DNA from: Lachnospiraceae bacterium
GTDB lineage: Bacteria > Bacillota > Clostridia > Lachnospirales > Lachnospiraceae
Assembly (NCBI GenBank): GCA_024694055.1
Contig: JAILKC010000162.1
Coordinates: forward strand, 1-41,088
Reading direction: 5' to 3'
DNA: 41,088 bases
Shown here: positions 272 to 12,948 of the stretch, in pieces
Layout of the letters: each line of letters starts with the position of its first letter
How positions within the stretch are numbered: the stretch's first letter is position 1
Translations under genes and position numbers: made by a program
The notes under the pieces: model-generated
The model's database searches: none
What the model was told of the DNA's origin: nothing
Seen by the model: the letters and a program-made list of their open reading frames with translations, nothing else

Positions 272-736
272 ATGGAAGAACTTAAGGTGTTTTCAGAGGC
301 AGTTCAATACATAAAGATAGAGATGGGTACCGAACTGTTTGGTATAGACATTAGCTATGTCGACAATATAGTCAGACCTCAGCATGTCACCAGAGTACCT
401 AATGTCGCTTCATACATCAAGGGTGTCATCAATATCCGAGGCGAGATCATCCCTATCATGAGTCTCAGACTCAAGATGAACCTTGAAGAGGTTGAAGAGG
501 ATAAGAATACCCGATTCATCATCGTCAAGATGGAGAAGTACGGCAAGATCGGTCTTATAGTAGATGCGGTCAAGGAAGTTGTTACTCTCGAAGAGAATCA
601 GATAGAAAGAGTAAAGGTTGATACTTCCGATGAAGTTTCGCACTTTGTATCGGGCGTGGGTAAAGTGGACGGAGTGCTTGTATCGTTGCTTGACCTTGAT
701 ATGGTTGTTATGGAGAAGACGGCAAAGGAGGAGTAG
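272..736 (+). CDS. cheW: Chemotaxis adaptor protein CheW
   Basis: This 154-residue protein is a single CheW domain, the scaffold that links chemoreceptors to CheA. Family-typical stretches are visible: FGIDISYVDNIVRP near residue 23, VPNVASYIKGVINIRGEIIPI near 42-62, and the ending VSGVGKVDGVLVSLLDLD. Length fits the family. The ATG follows a GGAGGG site 7 bases upstream. It lies between cheA and cheC, and cheC starts 4 bases after its stop, with the cheC ribosome site inside the end of cheW, so the two are probably translationally coupled. Confidence 0.95.
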   Translation: MEELKVFSEAVQYIKIEMGTELFGIDISYVDNIVRPQHVTRVPNVASYIKGVINIRGEIIPIMSLRLKMNLEEVEEDKNTRFIIVKMEKYGKIGLIVDAVKEVVTLEENQIERVKVDTSDEVSHFVSGVGKVDGVLVSLLDLDMVVMEKTAKEE

Positions 737-739
737 CGT

Positions 740-1354
740 ATGAGTGATTTGACACTTGACAGCATTTCAACGCAATACTTCGATGTTCTTAAAGAATTAG
801 GCAATATTGGGGCGGGTAATGCTACAACCGCCCTTGCTGCACTGTTACAGTGCAAGGTGGATATGAAGGTTCCTCAGGTTTTGACATTGGATTTTAAAGA
901 TGTCGGAGCCCTGTTAGGCGGAGAGGAACAGATCATGGCAGGTGCATATCTGGGTGTGGAAGGTGATGTCACCGGAAGCATACTGTTCCTTGTTAAAAAA
1001 GAGATTGCGATGCATTTGGTCAAGAAGCTTATGGGTGACATGGCTTCTGATGATTTTGGTGAGATGGAGAGATCTGCATTCAAGGAGATATCGAACATCA
1101 TCACAGGATCTTACCTCAATGCACTGGCCACTATGACCAATCTCACCATATATCCGTCTATTCCGGATCTTGCCATTGACATGGCCGGCGCTATCCTAAG
1201 CGTTCCCGCCATCGAATTTGGTATCATGGGTGATAAGATACTGCTCATTCAGTCACAGATCACGGATGATATTGATATAGACGGCTTCTTTATCATGATC
1301 CCTGATATGGAATCATATGAGAAGATTTTGTCGGCACTTGGAATATTAAGCTAG
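740..1354 (+). CDS. cheC: CheY-P phosphatase CheC
   Basis: CheC dephosphorylates CheY-P, and in B. subtilis and Thermotoga it works with CheD. The 204-residue protein has both copies of the phosphatase signature [D/S]-x3-E-x2-N-x22-P: D15, E19, N22, P45, and S112, E116, N119, P142. All key residues are intact, so both sites should be competent. The ATG is preceded by AAGGAGG that overlaps the end of cheW. cheD follows 22 bases downstream. The length matches B. subtilis CheC. Confidence 0.95.
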   Translation: MSDLTLDSISTQYFDVLKELGNIGAGNATTALAALLQCKVDMKVPQVLTLDFKDVGALLGGEEQIMAGAYLGVEGDVTGSILFLVKKEIAMHLVKKLMGDMASDDFGEMERSAFKEISNIITGSYLNALATMTNLTIYPSIPDLAIDMAGAILSVPAIEFGIMGDKILLIQSQITDDIDIDGFFIMIPDMESYEKILSALGILS

Positions 1355-1376: not shown

Positions 1377-1856
1377 ATGGAAGTTAAGGTAGGCATGGCA
1401 GATTTAAACGTCTGCGCTAGCCCGGATAGTATCATCACATTGGGACTCGGTTCCTGCGTAGGTGCGGTACTTTATGACCCCACCACCAAGATCTGTGGAA
1501 TGGTTCATGTCATGTTGCCTGACAGCACTACCATAGGTGCGGGCAATAATCGGGCCAAATTTGCCGATACAGGATTAGATGAACTTCTCAAGGAAGTGAT
1601 CAAAAAAGGGGCAAAAAAAGAGAGACTTGTCGCCAAGATCGCAGGCGGCGCGCAGATGTTCTCGGTTAATAAATCATCTCCGATGCTCCGTGTCGGAGAG
1701 CGTAATGTAGAAGCTGTCAAGAAGAAGCTTAAGGAACTTGGCATCAGACTGATAGCAGAGGATACGGGTGATAGCTATGGACGTACGGTCATATTCTATC
1801 CCGAGACGGGTGAATATCTGATCAGAGCCATAGGCAAGGATCCCAAAACCATATGA
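1377..1856 (+). CDS. cheD: Chemoreceptor glutamine deamidase CheD
   Basis: CheD deamidates receptor glutamines and binds CheC. The 159-residue protein keeps the papain-like catalytic set at the positions I recall for Thermotoga CheD: T21, C27 (in GLGSCVGAVLYD) and H44 (in GMVHVMLPDS). The stop codon overlaps the next ATG in an ATGA arrangement (1853-1856). Pairing with cheC directly upstream supports the CheC-CheD adaptation module of Firmicutes. Confidence 0.95.
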   Translation: MEVKVGMADLNVCASPDSIITLGLGSCVGAVLYDPTTKICGMVHVMLPDSTTIGAGNNRAKFADTGLDELLKEVIKKGAKKERLVAKIAGGAQMFSVNKSSPMLRVGERNVEAVKKKLKELGIRLIAEDTGDSYGRTVIFYPETGEYLIRAIGKDPKTI

Positions 1857-2261: not shown

Positions 2262-3032
2262 ATGGATGAAGTTGCAAGAGCTAATCTGTGGAAGGATTAT
2301 GCCAGATTAGGAACAGCGGATCTGAGAGAAAAACTCATATTGGAATATGCACCGCTTGTCAAGGTGGTTGCAGGACGCTTAAGCATGTATCTCGGATACA
2401 ATGTTGAGTATGACGATCTTGTAGGATATGGTATATTCGGCCTTATAGATGCCATAGACAAGTATGACCATACCAAGCAGAATAAGTTTGAGACTTATGC
2501 ATCTTTACGTATCAGAGGAGAGATCCTTGATCAGATACGTAAGATGGACTGGATCCCCCGCACAGTCAGGCAGAAACAGAAGCAGATAGATGCCGCTATG
2601 AAGGAATTTGAGGCCGAACACGGGAGACAGGCTACGGATGAAGAACTTGCGACGGCACTCGGAATATCATCGGATGAATTCATTGATTGGCAGACACAGC
2701 TCAATGTCACCAATGTGATATCTCTCAATGAGTTTATGGAATCGGGCAGTGACGTTCCCAACGGAAGGGGAGGGTCGTCTCATTATATGCAGCCCGACGA
2801 GGCATATGAAGAAGAAGAACTTAAACAGGTACTCGCACAATCTCTTGAGATATTGACGGAAAAAGAGAGACGCGTGATCGAATTATACTACTACGAAGAG
2901 CTTACACTTAAAGAGATAGCGCTTGTACTTGAAGTGTCTGAGTCGAGGGTATCGCAGCTGCACACCAAAGCGTTGTCACGCATGAAGACCAAGATGGGCA
3001 AATATATGGGTATTTTGGCGGACAATGTCTGA
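2262..3032 (+). CDS. fliA: Flagellar RNA polymerase sigma-28 factor FliA/SigD
   Basis: This 256-residue sigma factor directs transcription of late flagellar and chemotaxis genes. Region 2 is clear (DDLVGYGIFGLIDAIDKYD, then FETYASLRIRGEILDQIRKMDW near 75-95), with region 3 (DEELATALGIS) and region 4 (LTEKERRVIELYYYEELTLKEIA, then VSESRVSQLHTKAL). Length and order match B. subtilis SigD, which also follows cheD. The ribosome site before the ATG is weak (GGGGTTAGGG). No anti-sigma FlgM gene is in the window. Confidence 0.95.
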   Translation: MDEVARANLWKDYARLGTADLREKLILEYAPLVKVVAGRLSMYLGYNVEYDDLVGYGIFGLIDAIDKYDHTKQNKFETYASLRIRGEILDQIRKMDWIPRTVRQKQKQIDAAMKEFEAEHGRQATDEELATALGISSDEFIDWQTQLNVTNVISLNEFMESGSDVPNGRGGSSHYMQPDEAYEEEELKQVLAQSLEILTEKERRVIELYYYEELTLKEIALVLEVSESRVSQLHTKALSRMKTKMGKYMGILADNV

Positions 3033-3063
3033 TACTTATAAGCATTATGGGGAGTAAGCGGAT

Positions 3064-4653
3064 ATGGATGCAAGTTTTCAGTTGATATGTGGCGACAAAG
3101 AGACCAAGTTGAAGCTCATACCGGCTACGGATGGGGGCGCACCCATTGATGTAGGCGTTTTAGTAGATTATCTTAATGTTTCAAAAGTCGAATTCTTAGT
3201 GCCTGAAGTAAGTAAAGCGGTAGCGGAACTTGCTGAGGAGACCACCATCACACTCAATAAGAATAAGACGCCGGCGGTCAGTGAACATCTGGTTCTGAAC
3301 CTGGAAGAAGACAATATGGTCTGCACGGGTCATTTTTTGCCGCCGTCAGATAAGGGCGCACTTGTCAACAGATCCGACATATTGGCGGCTCTTAAGAATG
3401 CCGGAGTGGTATACGGCATCCTTGATGATGCCATTGACGCATATTTAAGAAACAGAGAATACTTTAAGGAAATAGAGTTTGCCAGGGGCAAGGAACCGGT
3501 CCAGGGAAAAGATGCCGAGGTTGAGTATTTTTTCAATACCGATCTTAAGGCAAGGCCGACTCTTAAAGAGGATGGAAGCGTAGACTTCTTTAATCTCAAT
3601 ATCATTAATCACTGTACGGACGGAGAACTGCTTGCGAGACTTCACAGGGAAGTTCCGGGAGTGTACGGAAGTGATGTATTGGGCGGACGTATCAAACCCA
3701 TGGATGTACACCGCAAGGTATTAAGGTTTGGGCGTAATATTCGTTTGTCCGAAGATAAGAATGAGATATTTGCTACATGTGACGGACATGTAAGCCTTGT
3801 GGAAGGCAGAGTGTTCGTGAGCAATGTCATGCAGGTGGAGAATGTGGACACGGCCACCGGCAATATCGAATACGAGGGTAATGTCCAGGTCAACGGCAAT
3901 GTGGCCACCAATTTTTCGGTCAAGGCAAGAGGTAATGTCGAGGTCAGAGGCGTGGTCGAAGGTGCCGAGATAGAAGCGGGAGGCAATATCACCATAGCCA
4001 GAGGCATGAACGGCATGAGCAGGGGCGTGCTCAAGGCGGGCGGTAATGTTATCGCACAGTTTATAGAGAATTCATCGGTGGAGGCCGGAGGTTATGTGGA
4101 AGCCGGTTCCATCATGCACAGCCAGGTGCTTGCCGGAACGGAGGTTCACGTAGGCGGTAAGAGAGGCTTTATATCAGGCGGAAAAGTAGCAGCGACTACA
4201 CTTGTGGAAGCCAAGATACTCGGATCCGATATGGGTACGGATACAGTGGTCGAGATAGGTATCAGCCCTACGACCAAGCGACGTCACAAAGAACTTGAAG
4301 AACTGATCGATAACAATAATAAGACTCTTGCAAGGGCGATCCCGATACTTGAGGCTGCAAGAGATAAGTACCAGACCGGCAAGGAATTATCTCCCGAACA
4401 GATAGACAATATCAAGGGTCTTGCTGCGGTAGTAAGAGAAAAGAAGAAAGAACAGCACGACTGTTATGAAGAACTAGAGACGATCACCGCTTTGCTTGCG
4501 GATGAAAAGAAGTCATCCGTGGTAGTACGTGATACGGTATATCCCGGTGTCAAAGTTGCGATCTCGGACGTATCCAAGATCATCAAGGAACCGGTGCAGT
4601 ATTGCAGATTTGTCAAGGAAAGAGGAGATGTCAAGATCGTCGGAATGAATTGA
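3064..4653 (+). CDS. FapA family protein (DUF342)
   Basis: A 529-residue cytoplasmic protein of the FapA/DUF342 family, found in flagellar operons of clostridia and vibrios; FapA has been linked to flagellar assembly and polar targeting. The N-terminal domain is followed from about residue 250 by a right-handed beta-helix-like array of short Gly-Asn/Gly-Gly repeats (GNVQVNGNV, GNVEVRGVVEG, AGGNITIARG, AGGNVIAQF, AGGYVEAGS). A charged coiled coil follows (about 415-485), then a short C-terminal domain ending VKIVGMN. The start has GGGGAG upstream. It sits between fliA and a small unknown gene. Confidence 0.85.
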   Translation: MDASFQLICGDKETKLKLIPATDGGAPIDVGVLVDYLNVSKVEFLVPEVSKAVAELAEETTITLNKNKTPAVSEHLVLNLEEDNMVCTGHFLPPSDKGALVNRSDILAALKNAGVVYGILDDAIDAYLRNREYFKEIEFARGKEPVQGKDAEVEYFFNTDLKARPTLKEDGSVDFFNLNIINHCTDGELLARLHREVPGVYGSDVLGGRIKPMDVHRKVLRFGRNIRLSEDKNEIFATCDGHVSLVEGRVFVSNVMQVENVDTATGNIEYEGNVQVNGNVATNFSVKARGNVEVRGVVEGAEIEAGGNITIARGMNGMSRGVLKAGGNVIAQFIENSSVEAGGYVEAGSIMHSQVLAGTEVHVGGKRGFISGGKVAATTLVEAKILGSDMGTDTVVEIGISPTTKRRHKELEELIDNNNKTLARAIPILEAARDKYQTGKELSPEQIDNIKGLAAVVREKKKEQHDCYEELETITALLADEKKSSVVVRDTVYPGVKVAISDVSKIIKEPVQYCRFVKERGDVKIVGMN

Positions 4654-4669
4654 CGGATCTTGGATTTTA

Positions 4670-4685
4670 AAGGCGCATGCGCCTT
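4670..4685. repeat. 16-bp perfect palindrome between fapA-like gene and next gene
   Basis: The bases AAGGCGCATGCGCCTT read the same on both strands and lie 17 bases after the stop of the FapA-type gene and 16 bases before the next true start. In RNA they would form a short GC-rich stem with a tight loop. No T-run follows, so this is not a standard terminator; it could be an mRNA processing or stabilising element. Confidence 0.6.
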
Positions 4686-4700
4686 AAGCGGAGGCAGGAT

Positions 4701-5015
4701 ATGGCTATAGGTATTGTAGAACTTAACAGTGCCATGACCGGCATCAATGATTTCAATAATTTCAGACATAATGAAGTGGCTAAGGCAGGTGTGGATCAGG
4801 TCAATTTTCAGCAGCAGTTCGATCAGGAACTGGATATGCAACTTCATGATGTCAATGAAGCGGAAGATACCAACAACCGTCAGAAGAGATTCGACAGCAG
4901 GGATAAGGGAAGCAACGAATATTCCGGTGACGGCGGTAAAAAACGCAAGGATAAAAGAGACAATCCCGATGGAAGGGTGATACCCAAGTATACGGGATTC
5001 GATCTAAAGATATAA
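4701..5015 (+). CDS. Conserved-looking unknown protein in flagellar operon
   Basis: A 104-residue hydrophilic protein without recognised family. ATG 4701 is preferred to the in-frame ATG at 4677, which lies in the palindrome and has no ribosome site; 4701 has CGGAGG eight bases upstream. The N-terminal third (MAIGIVELNSAMTGINDFNN) looks folded. The middle is Gln/Asn/Asp-rich, and residues about 60-90 are Lys/Arg/Gly/Asp-rich and probably disordered. The end IPKYTGFDLKI is short and hydrophobic. No signal peptide or membrane helix. Its operon position implies a link to motility. Confidence 0.7.
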   Translation: MAIGIVELNSAMTGINDFNNFRHNEVAKAGVDQVNFQQQFDQELDMQLHDVNEAEDTNNRQKRFDSRDKGSNEYSGDGGKKRKDKRDNPDGRVIPKYTGFDLKI

Positions 5016-5039
5016 AGAAAACGAGGATCAGAACACAAC

Positions 5040-5894
5040 ATGATTACGGTAGCTGAGATAATAATCCTAATAGTCGGAGCGATACTTTTTACGGTGAGCT
5101 TCATTATACCCGATAAGAGATCGGGACTGTCGGTGGATGCTGACGGATATGTGGACGAAGATGCCATAAGAGAGGTAGTGGACGACGAGCTTAAGAAGGC
5201 CAAAGAGAGTATCGAAGAAGCGACCAAACTCAGTATAAGCGACAGCAAGGATAAGCTTGAGCGATATATGGACAGGCTTACCAATGAGAAGATGATGGCG
5301 GTGGGAGAGTATTCGGATACCGTCATGGAGCAGATACATAAGGATCATGAGGAGGCGGTATTCCTCTATGACATGATAGACAATAAGCACAGCCAGGTGA
5401 AGAATACGGCTGCAGAGTTGGGACAGCTTGAAAAAGACGTAAGAAGACTGTCTGAGAGTGTCAAGACCAAGGGCGATGCTTCGGATAACAAGCAGGCCGA
5501 AGCTGTGGCAGCACCGAAGGCGCATGCATCCGGCAAACGTAACGAGAGTAAGCCTGTCGAAGAGAAGAAGGACAAAAAAACAGAGGTATTTGACGCTGAC
5601 TTTTCAGCTCTTTCACCGGATAAGGTAAGTGTATCCGAGCCGGATATACCTGAGGTTAAGACTGTGGCACCTGCAGATGAACTGGGGGCTGAGGTCTTGG
5701 ATGCCAAGGATGCACCGGGGCCCATGGCCGGAGACAGCGTAGAGCTTTTGTTTGATTCGGACAGCAACAGCATGAATAATAACGGCAGAATTCTGTCACT
5801 CCATAAGGCGGGTAAATCCAATATGGCCATAGCCAAGGAGCTCGGCCTCGGAGTAGGAGAGGTCAAATTGGTGATAGACCTCTTTAAGAATTAG
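5040..5894 (+). CDS. SwrB/DUF6115-like membrane-anchored protein with C-terminal HTH-like segment
   Basis: A 284-residue protein with one N-terminal membrane helix (about residues 3-22), a charged, probably coiled-coil region (about 40-140), a variable acidic linker (about 145-240) and a compact C-terminal segment that looks like a helix-turn-helix (ILSLHKAGKSNMAIAKELGL, then GVGEVKLVIDLFKN). This layout and the position after fliA and before rpsB resemble B. subtilis SwrB, which follows sigD and promotes flagellar export-apparatus activation. The SwrB/DUF6115 link is inference from architecture and synteny; sequence identity could not be measured. Confidence 0.65.
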   Translation: MITVAEIIILIVGAILFTVSFIIPDKRSGLSVDADGYVDEDAIREVVDDELKKAKESIEEATKLSISDSKDKLERYMDRLTNEKMMAVGEYSDTVMEQIHKDHEEAVFLYDMIDNKHSQVKNTAAELGQLEKDVRRLSESVKTKGDASDNKQAEAVAAPKAHASGKRNESKPVEEKKDKKTEVFDADFSALSPDKVSVSEPDIPEVKTVAPADELGAEVLDAKDAPGPMAGDSVELLFDSDSNSMNNNGRILSLHKAGKSNMAIAKELGLGVGEVKLVIDLFKN

Positions 5895-5914
5895 GAAGTG
5901 GCAGGAGGAAGATC

Positions 5915-6556
5915 GTGAAGCTTAAGTTTTACCTGCGAGGAATAGGAATAGGAATAATAGTGGCGGTAGCCATATGTATATGTGCGGGTCTAAGGACATC
6001 GGAAAAGACCATGAGCGATGATGAGGTCATAAAAAGAGCCAAAGAACTCGGAATGACTCAGTCATCGGTGCTTACGGAGACAGAACCCGCGGATGAAGTC
6101 GCTGAGATCATAAATGATGAGACTGAACCGGCACCTGCACAGGATATAGTTAATGCACAGGATGAGGCAACTTTGGATGAGACACCGGCTACAGATGAAC
6201 AGGTCGCAGAGGAGTCCGAAGAAGTGACACCTGAGGCCACACCGGAACCGACGGAGGAACCTACACCGGAACCGACAGAAGAACCCATTGCGGAGCCCAC
6301 AGCCGAAGCTGTGACTGAACCGGAAGAGACCACTGAAGAGAGCGGTGACTATGTGATCATCTCGGTGGAGAAGGGCAACGGTTCGGATACGGTAGCAAGA
6401 AAACTTGAATCCGCCGGACTTATAGACAATGCATCGGAGTATGATAAGTGGCTGATGCAGAATGGATACGACAGGATCATATCAGCGGGGGCACATAAGA
6501 TCCCCAAGGGAGCGGGCAAGGAAGAAATAGCCAAGATCATTTGCAACAGGAAATAA
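5915..6556 (+). CDS. Membrane-anchored protein with MltG/YceG-type LysM-like domain, no catalytic domain
   Basis: 213 residues starting at GTG 5915, supported by AGGAGG eight bases upstream. There is a membrane anchor at about residues 8-27, then a Glu/Pro/Thr-rich spacer (about 45-145, with EPTEEPTPEPTEEP repeats) likely crossing the cell wall. The C-terminal domain of about 68 residues resembles the LysM-like N-terminal part of MltG (VEKGNGSDTVARKLESAGLI, ending IPKGAGKEEIAKII). The transglycosylase domain with its catalytic Glu is absent, so it may bind peptidoglycan or a partner rather than cut glycan. Its position in a flagellar operon suggests a wall-related role at the flagellum. Confidence 0.65.
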   Translation: MKLKFYLRGIGIGIIVAVAICICAGLRTSEKTMSDDEVIKRAKELGMTQSSVLTETEPADEVAEIINDETEPAPAQDIVNAQDEATLDETPATDEQVAEESEEVTPEATPEPTEEPTPEPTEEPIAEPTAEAVTEPEETTEESGDYVIISVEKGNGSDTVARKLESAGLIDNASEYDKWLMQNGYDRIISAGAHKIPKGAGKEEIAKIICNRK

Positions 6557-6593
6557 GTTATGGCACCTACAAATTGTGACAGGGAGGTATAAG

Positions 6594-7490
6594 ATGTTTG
6601 ATCGATTGTTTGCGGATTATCTCGTGAAGACAGGCAGGTTGAATTGCGATCAGTTGGATCGGATATATCAGGATCAGCAGAAAAAGTATGTCAGACTCGG
6701 CGTTATAGCCGTATCGGAAAAGCTTATGACCGTGGAAGAAGTAGAGGAGGTCAATCAGCTTCAGGCTCTGTATGATAAGAGATTCGGTGATATAGCCGTA
6801 TCCGAGGGTTATCTTAATGAAGAACAGGTGAGCAGACTGCTTGCACTTCAGGGCAATCCGTTCCTTACATTCATGCAGGCTGCGATCGATTCCGACATAA
6901 TTGGAGCGGGAGAATTCGATGATCTGCTGAAGGAGTTCCAGAAAGAGAACAACTTCACTCTGATGAATATTGAAGAGATGAAGAGTTGCCAGGTAGACCG
7001 GATAGTTCCGATATTTGTATACAAGGAGCCCGAACTTGTAAAAAAACTGTGTGGCGTAATGATCCGTACAGTTTCAAGACTTATAGACAACCATGTGTTT
7101 ATCAGAAAACCCTATGTGGAGAAGAGCGTGGACTTTGAGGCTCTTGCCAGACAGGAGCTTAACGGTGATCACCACATTTTGACAGCCATAGCAGGTGATG
7201 CGGATGATGGCATGATGAAAGTGGCGGTCGCCTTTGCGGGAGCTGAGAATGTATCTGACAGAGATGACAGTCTTGATGCTCTTTGCGAACTCATCAACTG
7301 CGTCAACGGACTTTTGGCTACCGAGGCCAGCAACGATGACGTGGATGTGGATATGGATGCACCGATGGCAGAAGGCAATAAGGGTAAGGTACGGGGAGAA
7401 AATGTGTTGGTGCTTCCTTTTGTGGCATGTGGCAGAGAATTCAAGATGCTCATCACTTATGATGAGGATTACGAAGTCGTAGTGGGATAA
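6594..7490 (+). CDS. CheX-like protein with N-terminal MshEN-like (c-di-GMP-binding type) repeats
   Basis: 298 residues from ATG 6594; GGGAGG at 6582-6587 decides this start over GTG 6576. The N-terminus has tandem 24-residue units: degenerate 5-28, good 34-57 (R34 L35 G36 ... Q57) and good 63-86 (R63 F64 G65 ... G72 ... Q86), each separated by 5 residues, with a weak fourth at about 92-116. This matches the MshEN pattern RLG-x-hydrophobic-G-x6-L-x-Q, whose two copies bind c-di-GMP. The C-terminal half is CheC/CheX-like with D-x3-E-x2-N (in DALCELINCVNG) and a Pro 22 residues after the Asn. cheY follows 14 bases downstream, so CheY-P is the likely substrate. The fusion is inferred by eye. Confidence 0.7.
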   Translation: MFDRLFADYLVKTGRLNCDQLDRIYQDQQKKYVRLGVIAVSEKLMTVEEVEEVNQLQALYDKRFGDIAVSEGYLNEEQVSRLLALQGNPFLTFMQAAIDSDIIGAGEFDDLLKEFQKENNFTLMNIEEMKSCQVDRIVPIFVYKEPELVKKLCGVMIRTVSRLIDNHVFIRKPYVEKSVDFEALARQELNGDHHILTAIAGDADDGMMKVAVAFAGAENVSDRDDSLDALCELINCVNGLLATEASNDDVDVDMDAPMAEGNKGKVRGENVLVLPFVACGREFKMLITYDEDYEVVVG

Positions 7491-7504: not shown

Positions 7505-7876
7505 ATGGCAAAGATAATGGTGGTAGATGATTCAAAGATCATGCGTAAGATCCTTACGGGAACACTTACGGACGCGGGGCATGAGGTGATAAAGGATGCA
7601 GCCAACGGCAAAGATGCTTTGGATGCTTTGGAGACTATGGAGATCAAGCCTGATCTGATCACGTTGGATATAACGATGCCTGTTATGGACGGCATAGAGG
7701 CGCTTAAGAACATTCGCGAGAAGTATCCCGATGTAAAAGTAGTGATGGTGAGTGCCGCAGGACAGAAGAGCAAGGTGCTTGAAGCGCTTAAGGCAGGGGC
7801 ACTTGACTTCTTACAGAAGCCTTTTGAAAAGGAAGACGTGGTTGCTGTCATAGGCAAATTCGTAAATAACGCATAA
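7505..7876 (+). CDS. cheY: CheY-type response regulator
   Basis: A 123-residue stand-alone receiver domain. Visible are the acidic pair D8/D9 (MVVDDSK), the phospho-acceptor D55 (LITLDITMPVMDG), the switch residue S83 (VMVSAAGQ) and K105 (FLQKPF). No output domain, so it most likely acts as the CheY that binds the flagellar switch. It has GGGAGG upstream, lies at the end of the fla/che operon, and directly follows a CheX-like gene, so their products are likely partners. A different phospho-relay role cannot be excluded. Confidence 0.9.
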   Translation: MAKIMVVDDSKIMRKILTGTLTDAGHEVIKDAANGKDALDALETMEIKPDLITLDITMPVMDGIEALKNIREKYPDVKVVMVSAAGQKSKVLEALKAGALDFLQKPFEKEDVVAVIGKFVNNA

Positions 7877-10535: not shown

Positions 10536-10563
10536 TATACATTATGTGTTTTGGGAGAGGAGT

Positions 10564-12948
10564 ATGAAAGACGGGATCATTCAAATTGGCGTCTTGATGG
10601 GCAACATATTCACCAAGCATCCGATGGAGGTGCTTAGAGGACTTACGGTCGGTGCGACAGAGAGGGGTATCAATCTCACCGTTTTCCCGGGGGCCCAGGG
10701 CTCTATATATGATTACTGGAATACGGATGATGAGAGTGCTTCTGACAGCATGTCCTTCTCGGAATATAATTTCCAGTACAATGCCATGTACGATTATGCC
10801 AATGTTGGCGGATTCGATGCGATCATCGTTACATACGGCACTTTGTCCATGTTCTTAAATGATGAGACAAAGGTACAGTTTTTCAAAAAATTCGGTAACA
10901 TTCCACTTGTAATTGCACAGGAATATGATGCTAACAGCCCACACTGCTACCTTATAGTAGAGAACTATGAAGGTATTCACAGAGTGGTATCGCATCTTAT
11001 AGAGCAGCACAGCTATCGCAGGATAGTATACCTGTCGGGGCCGAAGATGAACACCGAAGCTATGGAGAGACTGCGCGGATACCGTAATGCAATGGCCAGC
11101 CATGGTCTGCATGTATCCGACAGTATGATAGAATACGGTGATTTTTCGCAGGATGTTGAGGGACAGGTAATAAGGCTTCTTGAGAACAATCCCGATGCGG
11201 AAGCCATAGCATGTGCCAATGATGAGATGGCCATGGCGGCATACAGGGTATGCAGGGCCAGAGGCAAGGTGATAGGCAGAGATATCGCCATCACCGGTTT
11301 CGATGATATAGAGCAGGCGGCGACGTTCAATCCGCCTCTTACCACAGCCAGACAGGACGGATATATGCTTGGCCGTATGGCTATTGAACTGGCTATTGCC
11401 CGCATACAGGGAGAGGACAATAAAGGAATACATACTTTCCCTGCCCAGCTCATAGTCAGAGGTTCATGCGGATGCGATTTTTCTGCGATCGATACGTCTG
11501 AGGGAGTACTTACTCTCATAGACGAGTTCCCGAGCAATTACAGCAGCGGGGATTATATCAGCAGGATGGCTGAGACTCTGGCCAAAGAGTCGATGATGTA
11601 TATGTATTCTCCGGCAGTCATAAAAGCCTGCGAAGAATTCTTACAGCAATTATCATATATCCTTATAGGCATTATGGAGACTGAATCCATAGTGAGCCTT
11701 GGCTCGGAGCTTCGTAACAGTTACATGCAGCTTGTCAGAGTCAAACTTGATTTCTCTACTCGTAACTTTATCAACTGGAGTATACTGACCAAATATGTGC
11801 ACAGGCTGTTTGATGCTCTGATATCGGCTCCCTCTGCCACATATGAGAAGTCTACATTGATACACAGCTTCATGGAGAAGTTTGACGAGCATATCAGTTC
11901 TATGCTCATTCAGACGGGCCTTGAACAGAAGGAGATCATGGAGCAGAGTTATATTGAGTCTGCTCAGGTGATTGCAAGGTTAAAAGAGAGAGTGTCTGAT
12001 CCTACTGCGTTCTTCAAGACCTGTATGTTACAGGTGGTGGCTCAGGGAGCCAAGAATGCATATCTTTTCTTAAATGAACTGCCTATCATACATGAAAAGG
12101 GAACGGATTTCACTTGCCCTGAGCGGATGAATCTCATAGCTTCGAGTCACGGCAGTGAGATCACCATATATCAGCATGACAGTGGTGAAGTCATCACAAA
12201 GAAGCGCGGATTTACCGGATATTATCCGGGTGACAAGGATCACATGTACATATCATTCCTTCTGTTTTCCGAGAATGAAGTGTACGGATTGCTACTTGCG
12301 GATATCACGCCCGAGCAGTTATCTGCCATGCACGGAGTCAGCATGCAGATCGGCAACGGACTTTCATTCATGAGTCTGTCCATCAAGGAAGAAGAAGCCA
12401 AGAAGGCACTTAATGAGACACTTAGAGAACTTCGTGAGAGAAATAAGATTCTGGCATCGGTATCAAGCAACGATCCGATGACGGGAGTATTTAACAGACG
12501 CGGTTTCATGGAAAAGGCGCTTGAGATAAACAGACTGCATGACGGTGAACAGGCGTGTCTTTTCTTCTGTGACCTTGATCATCTTAAGGAGATCAACGAT
12601 GTGTTCGGTCATGCGGACGGTGACTACGCCATCACGACACTGTCACAGGTACTTTCCGATGCGATGGGGGATAAAGGATGCTGCGGACGTATAGGCGGTG
12701 ATGAGTTTATCGCGGTACTGCCTTGTGATGAGGACGGAGCAAAGAACGTTGTGGCAACCATCAAGAGTGCGCTTGCCAAGGTCAACGAGACTTCATGCAA
12801 GCCATACTTTATCGAGAGTTCCGTTGGATATGCTTCGTTTATCTGCGACGAAGATGTAGTATTTGAAGATGTGATCAAGTCAGCCGACGGTGAGCTGTAT
12901 AAGGATAAGCAAAGGCGAAGAGCATCCATCAGCAGAGGTGGTATGTAG
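10564..12948 (+). CDS. Diguanylate cyclase with LacI-type periplasmic-binding-like sensor domain
   Basis: 794 residues; ATG 10564 is chosen for its GGGAGAGGAG site over GTG 10546. Residues about 4-310 form a LacI/PBP-type ligand domain (IIQIGVLMGNIFTKHPMEVL, then AIACANDEMAMAAYRVCRA, ITGFDDIEQA, and TTARQDGYMLGRMA), but without the DNA-binding headpiece or a signal peptide, so it is a cytosolic sensor. A helical and GAF-like middle (about 320-610) leads through a coiled coil to a GGDEF domain (DPMTGVFNRRGF; GGDEF at 711-715), predicted active in making c-di-GMP. The RxxD inhibitory site upstream of GGDEF is missing. The ligand is probably a sugar or nucleoside (family inference). Confidence 0.85.
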   Translation: MKDGIIQIGVLMGNIFTKHPMEVLRGLTVGATERGINLTVFPGAQGSIYDYWNTDDESASDSMSFSEYNFQYNAMYDYANVGGFDAIIVTYGTLSMFLNDETKVQFFKKFGNIPLVIAQEYDANSPHCYLIVENYEGIHRVVSHLIEQHSYRRIVYLSGPKMNTEAMERLRGYRNAMASHGLHVSDSMIEYGDFSQDVEGQVIRLLENNPDAEAIACANDEMAMAAYRVCRARGKVIGRDIAITGFDDIEQAATFNPPLTTARQDGYMLGRMAIELAIARIQGEDNKGIHTFPAQLIVRGSCGCDFSAIDTSEGVLTLIDEFPSNYSSGDYISRMAETLAKESMMYMYSPAVIKACEEFLQQLSYILIGIMETESIVSLGSELRNSYMQLVRVKLDFSTRNFINWSILTKYVHRLFDALISAPSATYEKSTLIHSFMEKFDEHISSMLIQTGLEQKEIMEQSYIESAQVIARLKERVSDPTAFFKTCMLQVVAQGAKNAYLFLNELPIIHEKGTDFTCPERMNLIASSHGSEITIYQHDSGEVITKKRGFTGYYPGDKDHMYISFLLFSENEVYGLLLADITPEQLSAMHGVSMQIGNGLSFMSLSIKEEEAKKALNETLRELRERNKILASVSSNDPMTGVFNRRGFMEKALEINRLHDGEQACLFFCDLDHLKEINDVFGHADGDYAITTLSQVLSDAMGDKGCCGRIGGDEFIAVLPCDEDGAKNVVATIKSALAKVNETSCKPYFIESSVGYASFICDEDVVFEDVIKSADGELYKDKQRRRASISRGGM

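Follow-up and report, generated by a model that had tools for sequence, protein, structure and literature searches.

The protein encoded at 6594–7490 on the plus strand of the window (the whole stretch of 41,088 nucleotides of Lachnospiraceae DNA that was analysed) joins MshEN-type repeats, known for binding c-di-GMP, to a CheX-fold domain, and its gene is followed by one for a CheY-type receiver. We read it as a c-di-GMP-responsive CheY-P phosphatase, giving this whole chain, with either CheY as the target, a probability of about 60%. Domain identity, fold, conserved ligand-contact and catalytic residues, and linkage or fusion to CheY come directly from the computation. The gene lies among the following features:

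272–736, plus strand: cheW (Pfam CheW over cut-off)
740–1354, plus strand: cheC (Pfam CheC over cut-off, in two stretches)
1377–1856, plus strand: cheD (Pfam CheD over cut-off)
2262–3032, plus strand: sigma-70-family factor
3064–4653, plus strand: FapA
up to 6556, plus strand: a small ORF, then genes for a DUF6115 protein and for one that matches YceG weakly and under the cut-off
6594–7490, plus strand: mshEN-cheX gene, 298 aa, ATG start; relatives align from the same Met
7505–7876, plus strand: CheY-type single receiver domain, likely partner; D8, D9, D55, S83 and K105 present
10546–12948, plus strand: GGDEF protein with a LacI-type binding domain (Pfam), 3 kb beyond mshEN-cheX

The genes between cheD and mshEN-cheX thus span 2262–6556 on the same strand; we take the sigma factor to be of the sigma-D type and the genes downstream of mshEN-cheX and cheY to be rpsB and tsf. 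The translation of the 298-residue product agrees with the one stated in the sequence-only reading. An in-frame GTG lies ahead of the start at 6576; the ATG at 6594 has GGGAGG, a good ribosome site, just 5' of it, and Met is the aligned first residue in 97% of the group A relatives defined below.

Of 397 sampled genomes from the same family, 122 gave a match to the window protein, four of them (G162, G115, G305 and G332) only by an ATPase or by the CheX part. A wider draw on the phylum gave 15 of 398 genomes, our own included, with matches over at least profile positions 1–264 of 295; by our count these come from the same family and eight others. The best relatives with names, three from a scan of genome contigs, are Lachnospiraceae with 65%, 63% and 41% identity, one of which comes from sheep rumen. 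From 133 loci we removed three repeats (L131–L133), four without a tblastn hit (L111, L123, L126 and L129) and eight that were short, cut or broken (L016, L101, L118, L120, L122, L124, L128 and L130). The remaining 118 aligned sequences were divided, by our own division, into group A (61, including the window), group B (12) and group C (45, with 19–26% identity over the alignment).

A single search with a profile built from 80 relatives returned Thermotoga CheX 1xko (8e-6), the MshE structure 5htl (1.4e-5) and 3hzh, the Borrelia CheX from a CheX-CheY complex (1.7e-4), and the structure of the 298-residue protein was predicted with a mean pLDDT of 96.8 and a pTM of 0.89. By sequence profile and predicted fold, the MshEN-type and CheX domain assignments both hold.

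The CheX domain and its CheY partner

The C-terminal half contains two features:

7032–7484, plus strand: CheX-fold domain, residues 147–297 (Pfam CheX, profile to 1xko, Foldseek 3hm4)
7275–7364, plus strand: D-x3-E-x2-N with Pro 22 residues on, residues 228–257 (sequence; alignment)

Pfam CheX scores 24.6 bits here (E 2.7e-5), under its cut-off of 27, and reaches E ≤ 0.001 in 61 of 80 aligned members and 35.6 bits, above the cut-off, in the fused relative L038. The predicted structure of this part fits CheX, the type of domain proposed for it from the letters: Foldseek places 3hm4 at E 3.1e-8 (TM 0.78 by target) and Borrelia CheX 3hzh_B at 1.3e-5, and the top 13 rows are all CheX or CheC-like proteins. 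The motif described earlier is in place, with D228, E232 and N235 inside a long predicted helix (H223–247) and P257 lying 22 residues beyond N235; we take this arrangement to be the CheX motif for CheY-P dephosphorylation. Known CheX proteins work as dimers.

D, E and N are kept in 58 of 61 group A sequences (window included) and in all 12 of the CheY-fused group B, and together with the Pro in 57 of 61 and 9 of 12, respectively. A decayed CheX remnant in groups A and B is ruled out by the D-E-N counts. The catalytic Glu is replaced by Asp in 45 of 45 group C members, with the Asn kept in all; the Asp form may catalyse more slowly or may do no more than bind CheY. The sequence-only reading of a c-di-GMP-controlled CheY-P phosphatase is partly supported: both domain assignments hold, the key residues are conserved in the 73 sequences of groups A and B, and group C retains the larger part of its ligand residues with Asp in the place of the Glu.

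The adjoining cheY at 7505, also pointed out from the sequence, begins 14 bases after the end of the mshEN-cheX stop codon. Among the 125 other loci (all with a tblastn hit except the window and the repeats), a CheY-type receiver is adjacent or fused in 115: downstream in 57, with the receiver start within 300 bases, fused in 12 and upstream in 46, CheX-only or cut genes making up 4 of the 57 and 2 of the 46. All 115 linked receivers carry the phosphorylation residues D8, D9, D55, S/T83 and K105. An accidental CheY neighbour is ruled out by the linkage in 115 of 125 loci.

The arrangement follows the groups. Group A has cheY directly downstream in 53 of the 60 others; none was found at that place for L030, L057, L066, L071, L073, L077 and L087. 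In group B, a CheY receiver is fused at the C-terminus in 12 of 12, with 43–53% identity to the window CheY, and the receiver part of the modelled relative L038 resembles CheY structures. In group C (L072–L127), cheY lies directly upstream, not downstream, in 44 of 45 loci; L113 is the one for which no upstream cheY was found. We regard the link of the MshEN-CheX protein to CheY as strong.

Two side observations concern the genomic setting of the relatives. A threonine-synthase-like gene, presumably threonine synthase by our reading, follows about 965 bases after the gene start in 39 group C loci, on the opposite strand in 37 of the 39, indicating that the chromosomal place is conserved. The phage collection gave a single partial match: positions 5616–6044 of the unannotated record MT836856.1 (Bacteriophage sp.), 30.8% identical to residues 1–143 and possibly a bacterial fragment.

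Which CheY is acted on is less evident from the genome. Among 37 receiver matches in the window's own genome, the two closest after the window CheY are single-domain CheY proteins (41% over the matched stretch), one of which, presumably a Bacillus-like CheY, is encoded on contig C125 together with FlhA and the one CheA match of the genome; further single-domain receivers may be present. The window CheY is thus probably a second CheY and maybe not the main motor CheY. Because another CheY is encoded on the FlhA contig, we infer both which CheY is the target and what would follow for swimming bias. The earlier proposal that the protein acts on the adjacent CheY is accordingly upheld in the linkage and qualified in the partner's role.

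It is quite possible, if short of probable, that the system forms a side branch, in which the second CheY is a phosphate sink for CheA or drives something other than the motor and the main motor CheY is not acted on. This explanation overlaps with our best one and differs from it in the target. Besides the separate CheY beside FlhA and CheA, it draws on the 12 CheX-fused receivers, which show that the enzyme can have a receiver of its own and favour a dedicated one. Furthermore, ten other window genes match the flanks of relatives (1.5–6 kb) only in the nearest kin, L001, L002, L005 and L006, apart from a weak cheW match in L061 (21%) and a weak FapA match in L128 (31%). The neighbouring CheY is nearer to the window CheY than to the FlhA-contig CheY in 46 of 57 downstream, 6 of 12 fused and 24 of 46 upstream cases, a comparison that did not separate the two types. 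Against a side branch stand the place of the window pair, which comes after cheW, cheC, cheD and the sigma factor in one orientation, and the strong enrichment of carriers among FlhA-bearing genomes: FlhA was matched in 113 of 122 matching genomes versus 97 of 275 others (Fisher P 3.5e-29, kinship ignored), and in 110 of 118 when the four partial-match genomes are dropped (a manual count from those lists).

FlhA went unmatched in nine carriers. We looked for CheA in these nine and in the window's own genome; five of the nine have it, so that some carriers have CheA and no FlhA match, as a side branch would have it. Two of the FlhA-less carriers, G070 and G120, are 99–100% complete; both contain the MshEN-CheX gene, G120 with CheA and G070 without, which suggests that the device may work without flagella.

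The MshEN-type repeats and the supply of c-di-GMP

Four units lie in the N-terminal region:

6606–6677, plus strand: degenerate MshEN unit, residues 5–28; 8 of 11 relaxed positions; model hairpin H2-12/H18-30
6693–6764, plus strand: MshEN motif I, residues 34–57; 9 of 11 relaxed positions; best stretch of NF053729 at 40–86
6780–6851, plus strand: MshEN motif II, residues 63–86; 11 of 11 relaxed positions; Phe64 at position 2
6858–6947, plus strand: fourth helical hairpin, residues 89–118; model H89-99/H105-118; without ligand residues

The 24-residue units 34–57 (RLGVIAVSEKLMTVEEVEEVNQLQ) and 63–86 (RFGDIAVSEGYLNEEQVSRLLALQ) are present as first described, joined by a linker of 5 residues (58–62), and the degenerate unit 5–28, likewise foreseen, keeps the same 29-residue pitch. 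Scoring used the relaxed 24-residue pattern with 11 defined positions in the accessible text of Wang et al. 2016 (PMC5013675). Unit 63–86 carries the full relaxed consensus and unit 34–57 does not: it keeps R34, L35, G36 and Q57 and departs at position 10, where K43 replaces the consensus Gly, and at position 21, where N54 replaces a hydrophobic residue. The first description was right about the units and silent on these two departures. The best pair spaced by 29 residues scores 20 of 22 relaxed positions, a score that none of 20,000 shuffled versions of the protein attains; under the strict consensus it scores 13 of 22, which 1 of 20,000 shuffles reaches. Repeats by chance are ruled out by the relaxed score. 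At residues 92–115, 7 of 11 relaxed positions match. The model has hairpins H2-12/H18-30, H35-41/H47-60, H64-70/H76-84 and H89-99/H105-118, one at each place, and the fourth copy suggested at about 92–116 therefore exists as a fold unit.

The NCBIfam model NF053729 (c-di-GMP_motif, MshE-related) matches with 41.8 bits against a cut-off of 38 and recognises all 80 aligned relatives at E ≤ 1e-5; Pfam MshEN (PF05157) had no match anywhere in the window's own genome. With phmmer, MshE 5htl was reached at E 0.0035 for the whole protein and 0.00057 for residues 1–120. Weak matches to other families among the 80 relatives were EpsG (27), FumaraseC_C (23) and DUF4388 (19).

Structure comparison of the N-terminus fits the N-terminal half of MshE, again in line with the proposal made from the sequence. 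Foldseek superposes c-di-GMP-bound MshE 5htl_B at 0.7 Å over 53 columns with 34% identity and probability 1.00, at an E value of only 0.4; the 53 columns, for which the query range is not given, equal the length of motif I, linker and motif II. PilF GSPII-B 8pfa follows at 0.9 Å over 53 columns, and MshE and PilF chains overall give 0.7–1.1 Å over 53–56 columns with probabilities of 0.99–1.00 and poor E values of 0.4–1.4. The four-helix fold of the N-terminal MshEN half is thus present in the model, as seen from the 5htl_B match and the hairpins at both motifs. The C-terminal MshEN half, described with a small beta sheet in the accessible part of PMC12002112, is absent from the model, residues 89–141 being predicted as helices only.

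Ligand-contact residues stand in both motifs (R34, G36 and Q57; R63, G65 and Q86). Arg or Lys at position 1, Gly at 3 and Gln at 24 are found in both units together in 55 of 61 group A, 12 of 12 group B and 33 of 45 group C sequences. Four positions that contact the ligand in MshE, those of Gln57, Gln86, Gly36 and Gly65, rank with the best-conserved ones of the whole protein: Q57 occurs in 58 and Q86 in all of the 61 group A members. What the accessible portions of the PilF studies report bears on these positions: measurable binding needs Gln24 of both motifs and a suitable position 1 (PMC12002112, PMC11731258), a double Gln change abolished c-di-GMP binding (PMC11731258), Gly at position 3 gives high affinity (PMC12002112), and Lys or Leu may stand for Arg1, Lys at position 1 binding tightly in PilF (PMC11731258, PMC12002112).

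The first half-site has its own character. At position 21 of unit 1, 55 of 61 group A and 11 of 12 group B sequences have Asn, position 17 is mostly Ala or Val, and the whole relaxed pattern in unit 1 occurs in 0 of 61 and 0 of 12. Unit-2 position 2, which according to the accessible text on MshE faces the same base (PMC5013675), carries Phe in every group A and group B sequence (61 and 12); in PilF, as far as the available text goes, the hydrophobic cluster accepts other large hydrophobics (PMC12002112, PMC11731258). From these residue patterns we read the first c-di-GMP half-site as remodelled, with Asn54 and the facing Phe64, and not decayed.

c-di-GMP slows flagellar motors and acts on receptors and receptor methylation; a PilZ chemoreceptor is among the literature matches listed. 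GGDEF domains matched above cut-off 25 times in the window's own genome, and PilZ matched twice. A host without c-di-GMP is ruled out by these counts. GGDEF was found in 46 of 46 matching genomes, our own pick from the 122 carriers and so a sample of carriers only, with the partial G332 included; most of the family may have GGDEF as well. In six group A relatives (L035, L037, L041, L053, L070 and L071), a GGDEF/EAL-type gene lies head-to-head with the MshEN-CheX gene, 148–231 bases off. The six products have 570–816 residues, with a GGDEF motif and an EAL-like part; Pfam, run on L041 alone, gave EAL 240 bits and GGDEF 145 bits. Over the 91 loci compared for neighbours, which include three of L001–L033 (flanks mostly 1.5 kb), a GGDEF-motif gene lies within 6 kb at 8 of the 44 loci of groups A and B and at 2 of the 47 of group C, so the c-di-GMP neighbour link holds for a minority. 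No Rfam family, and thus no c-di-GMP riboswitch, reached gathering score in the window. We consider the link of the protein to c-di-GMP good but indirect.

The product of 10546–12948 combines GGDEF with a sugar-binding domain of the LacI type, and its Pfam matches include nothing that binds DNA; it is possibly a sugar-sensing c-di-GMP synthase, and its gene a possible source of c-di-GMP nearby.

We think it unlikely that the protein is a phosphatase free of ligand control, in which a retired MshEN-like stack serves dimerisation or CheY docking and CheX drains CheY-P constantly. Unit 1 does depart at positions 10 and 21, CheX-only genes also occur beside cheY (L120, L122 and L124), and the accessible text of PMC5013675 and PMC12002112 describes XpsE and PilF GSPII-A as MshEN-type domains that no longer bind after changes at key positions. 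A retired pocket is disfavoured by the retention of both Gln and by the conservation of the two Gly positions, and the GGDEF/EAL-type gene adjoining in six relatives likewise argues for a ligand. It is very improbable that the pocket binds something else, such as an unsymmetrical cyclic dinucleotide, an idea prompted by one canonical half-site opposite one with Asn54 and Phe64, by the steadiness of both residues in groups A and B and by the weak cGAMP binding of MshE itself (in the accessible text of PMC5013675), given that neither half has lost Gly3 or Gln24 and that GGDEF domains occur in every one of the carriers tested.

Known systems and the proposed mechanism

The closest known pockets are those of V. 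cholerae MshE (5htl) and T. thermophilus PilF GSPII-B (8pdk, 8pfa). The window protein shares with them the two 24-residue units and the 5-residue linker, Arg or Lys at position 1, Gly at 3 and Gln at 24 in both units and, in the model, the four-helix fold (0.7–0.9 Å over 53 columns). In contrast to both, it is fused to CheX and not to an ATPase, its model has no C-terminal MshEN half, unit 1 has Lys43 and Asn54 and unit 2 Phe at position 2, and extra hairpins stand before and after the motifs. Its C-terminal part is like Thermotoga CheX (1xko, 1squ) and the Borrelia CheX-CheY complex (3hzh) in fold and in its CheY partner, and like 1xko in the helix with E-x2-N by alignment; unlike them, it carries an N-terminal c-di-GMP-type module, and cheY is adjacent or fused throughout most of the other loci. 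CheC, which works with CheD, has a related CheY-P phosphatase fold, and CheC structures appear as lower Foldseek matches; the CheC encoded at 740–1354 differs in belonging to its own Pfam family, matched in two stretches, and in having no MshEN part.

The sequence-only reading knew of no described case. The architecture itself has been described: Wang et al. 2016 (PMC5013675), in the text accessible, name CheX among the domains found with MshEN, the same pairing as in the window protein, which is thus already known as a list entry. Nothing in that text concerns its function, the genes around it, a fusion to CheY or an altered active site. In the library of papers searched, we found no functional study of an MshEN-CheX protein. 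As far as the searches reach, the spread among FlhA-bearing relatives, the steady CheY link and the fused forms are new, as are the c-di-GMP-type enzyme gene adjoining in six relatives, the remodelled half-site and the sister group with Asp.

For the c-di-GMP-responsive phosphatase that we favour, we infer ligand binding, catalysis, the coupling with its sign, and the target as follows. Motifs I and II (residues 34–86) would form one MshEN-type pocket with c-di-GMP bound between them, and the degenerate hairpins on both sides would brace this pocket and link it with CheX. That domain would dock on CheY in its phosphorylated form, the most likely partner being the receiver encoded alongside at 7505, and would use Glu232 and Asn235 to speed dephosphorylation. 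Binding or loss of c-di-GMP may tilt the hairpin stack and thereby change access to, or activity of, the CheX site, so that the c-di-GMP level would set the rate of phosphate loss from the CheY pool and, with it, how much of the phosphate from CheA gets through to the motor. Our guess, with a slight lean, is that c-di-GMP raises the phosphatase activity.

A fuller version, tentative and on balance doubtful, would apply widely in flagellated Lachnospiraceae-type bacteria. There, c-di-GMP would gate a private phosphate drain on CheY, the co-encoded or fused CheY would act as a self-draining sink, the pocket would be half canonical and half remodelled, with Asn and Phe for the leucine cluster, and the Asp sister group might be a c-di-GMP-controlled CheY binder.

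If the favoured reading is true, a c-di-GMP pocket inside the enzyme responsible for CheY-P removal would connect the messenger to swimming bias directly and quickly, and one protein may, as predicted, join the settle-or-swim messenger to swimming direction. In the CheY-fused forms, the system would come as a single protein ready for assay. Guts and rumens are the main habitat of the members of this family, and among such gut and rumen relatives motility shapes the contact with the host.
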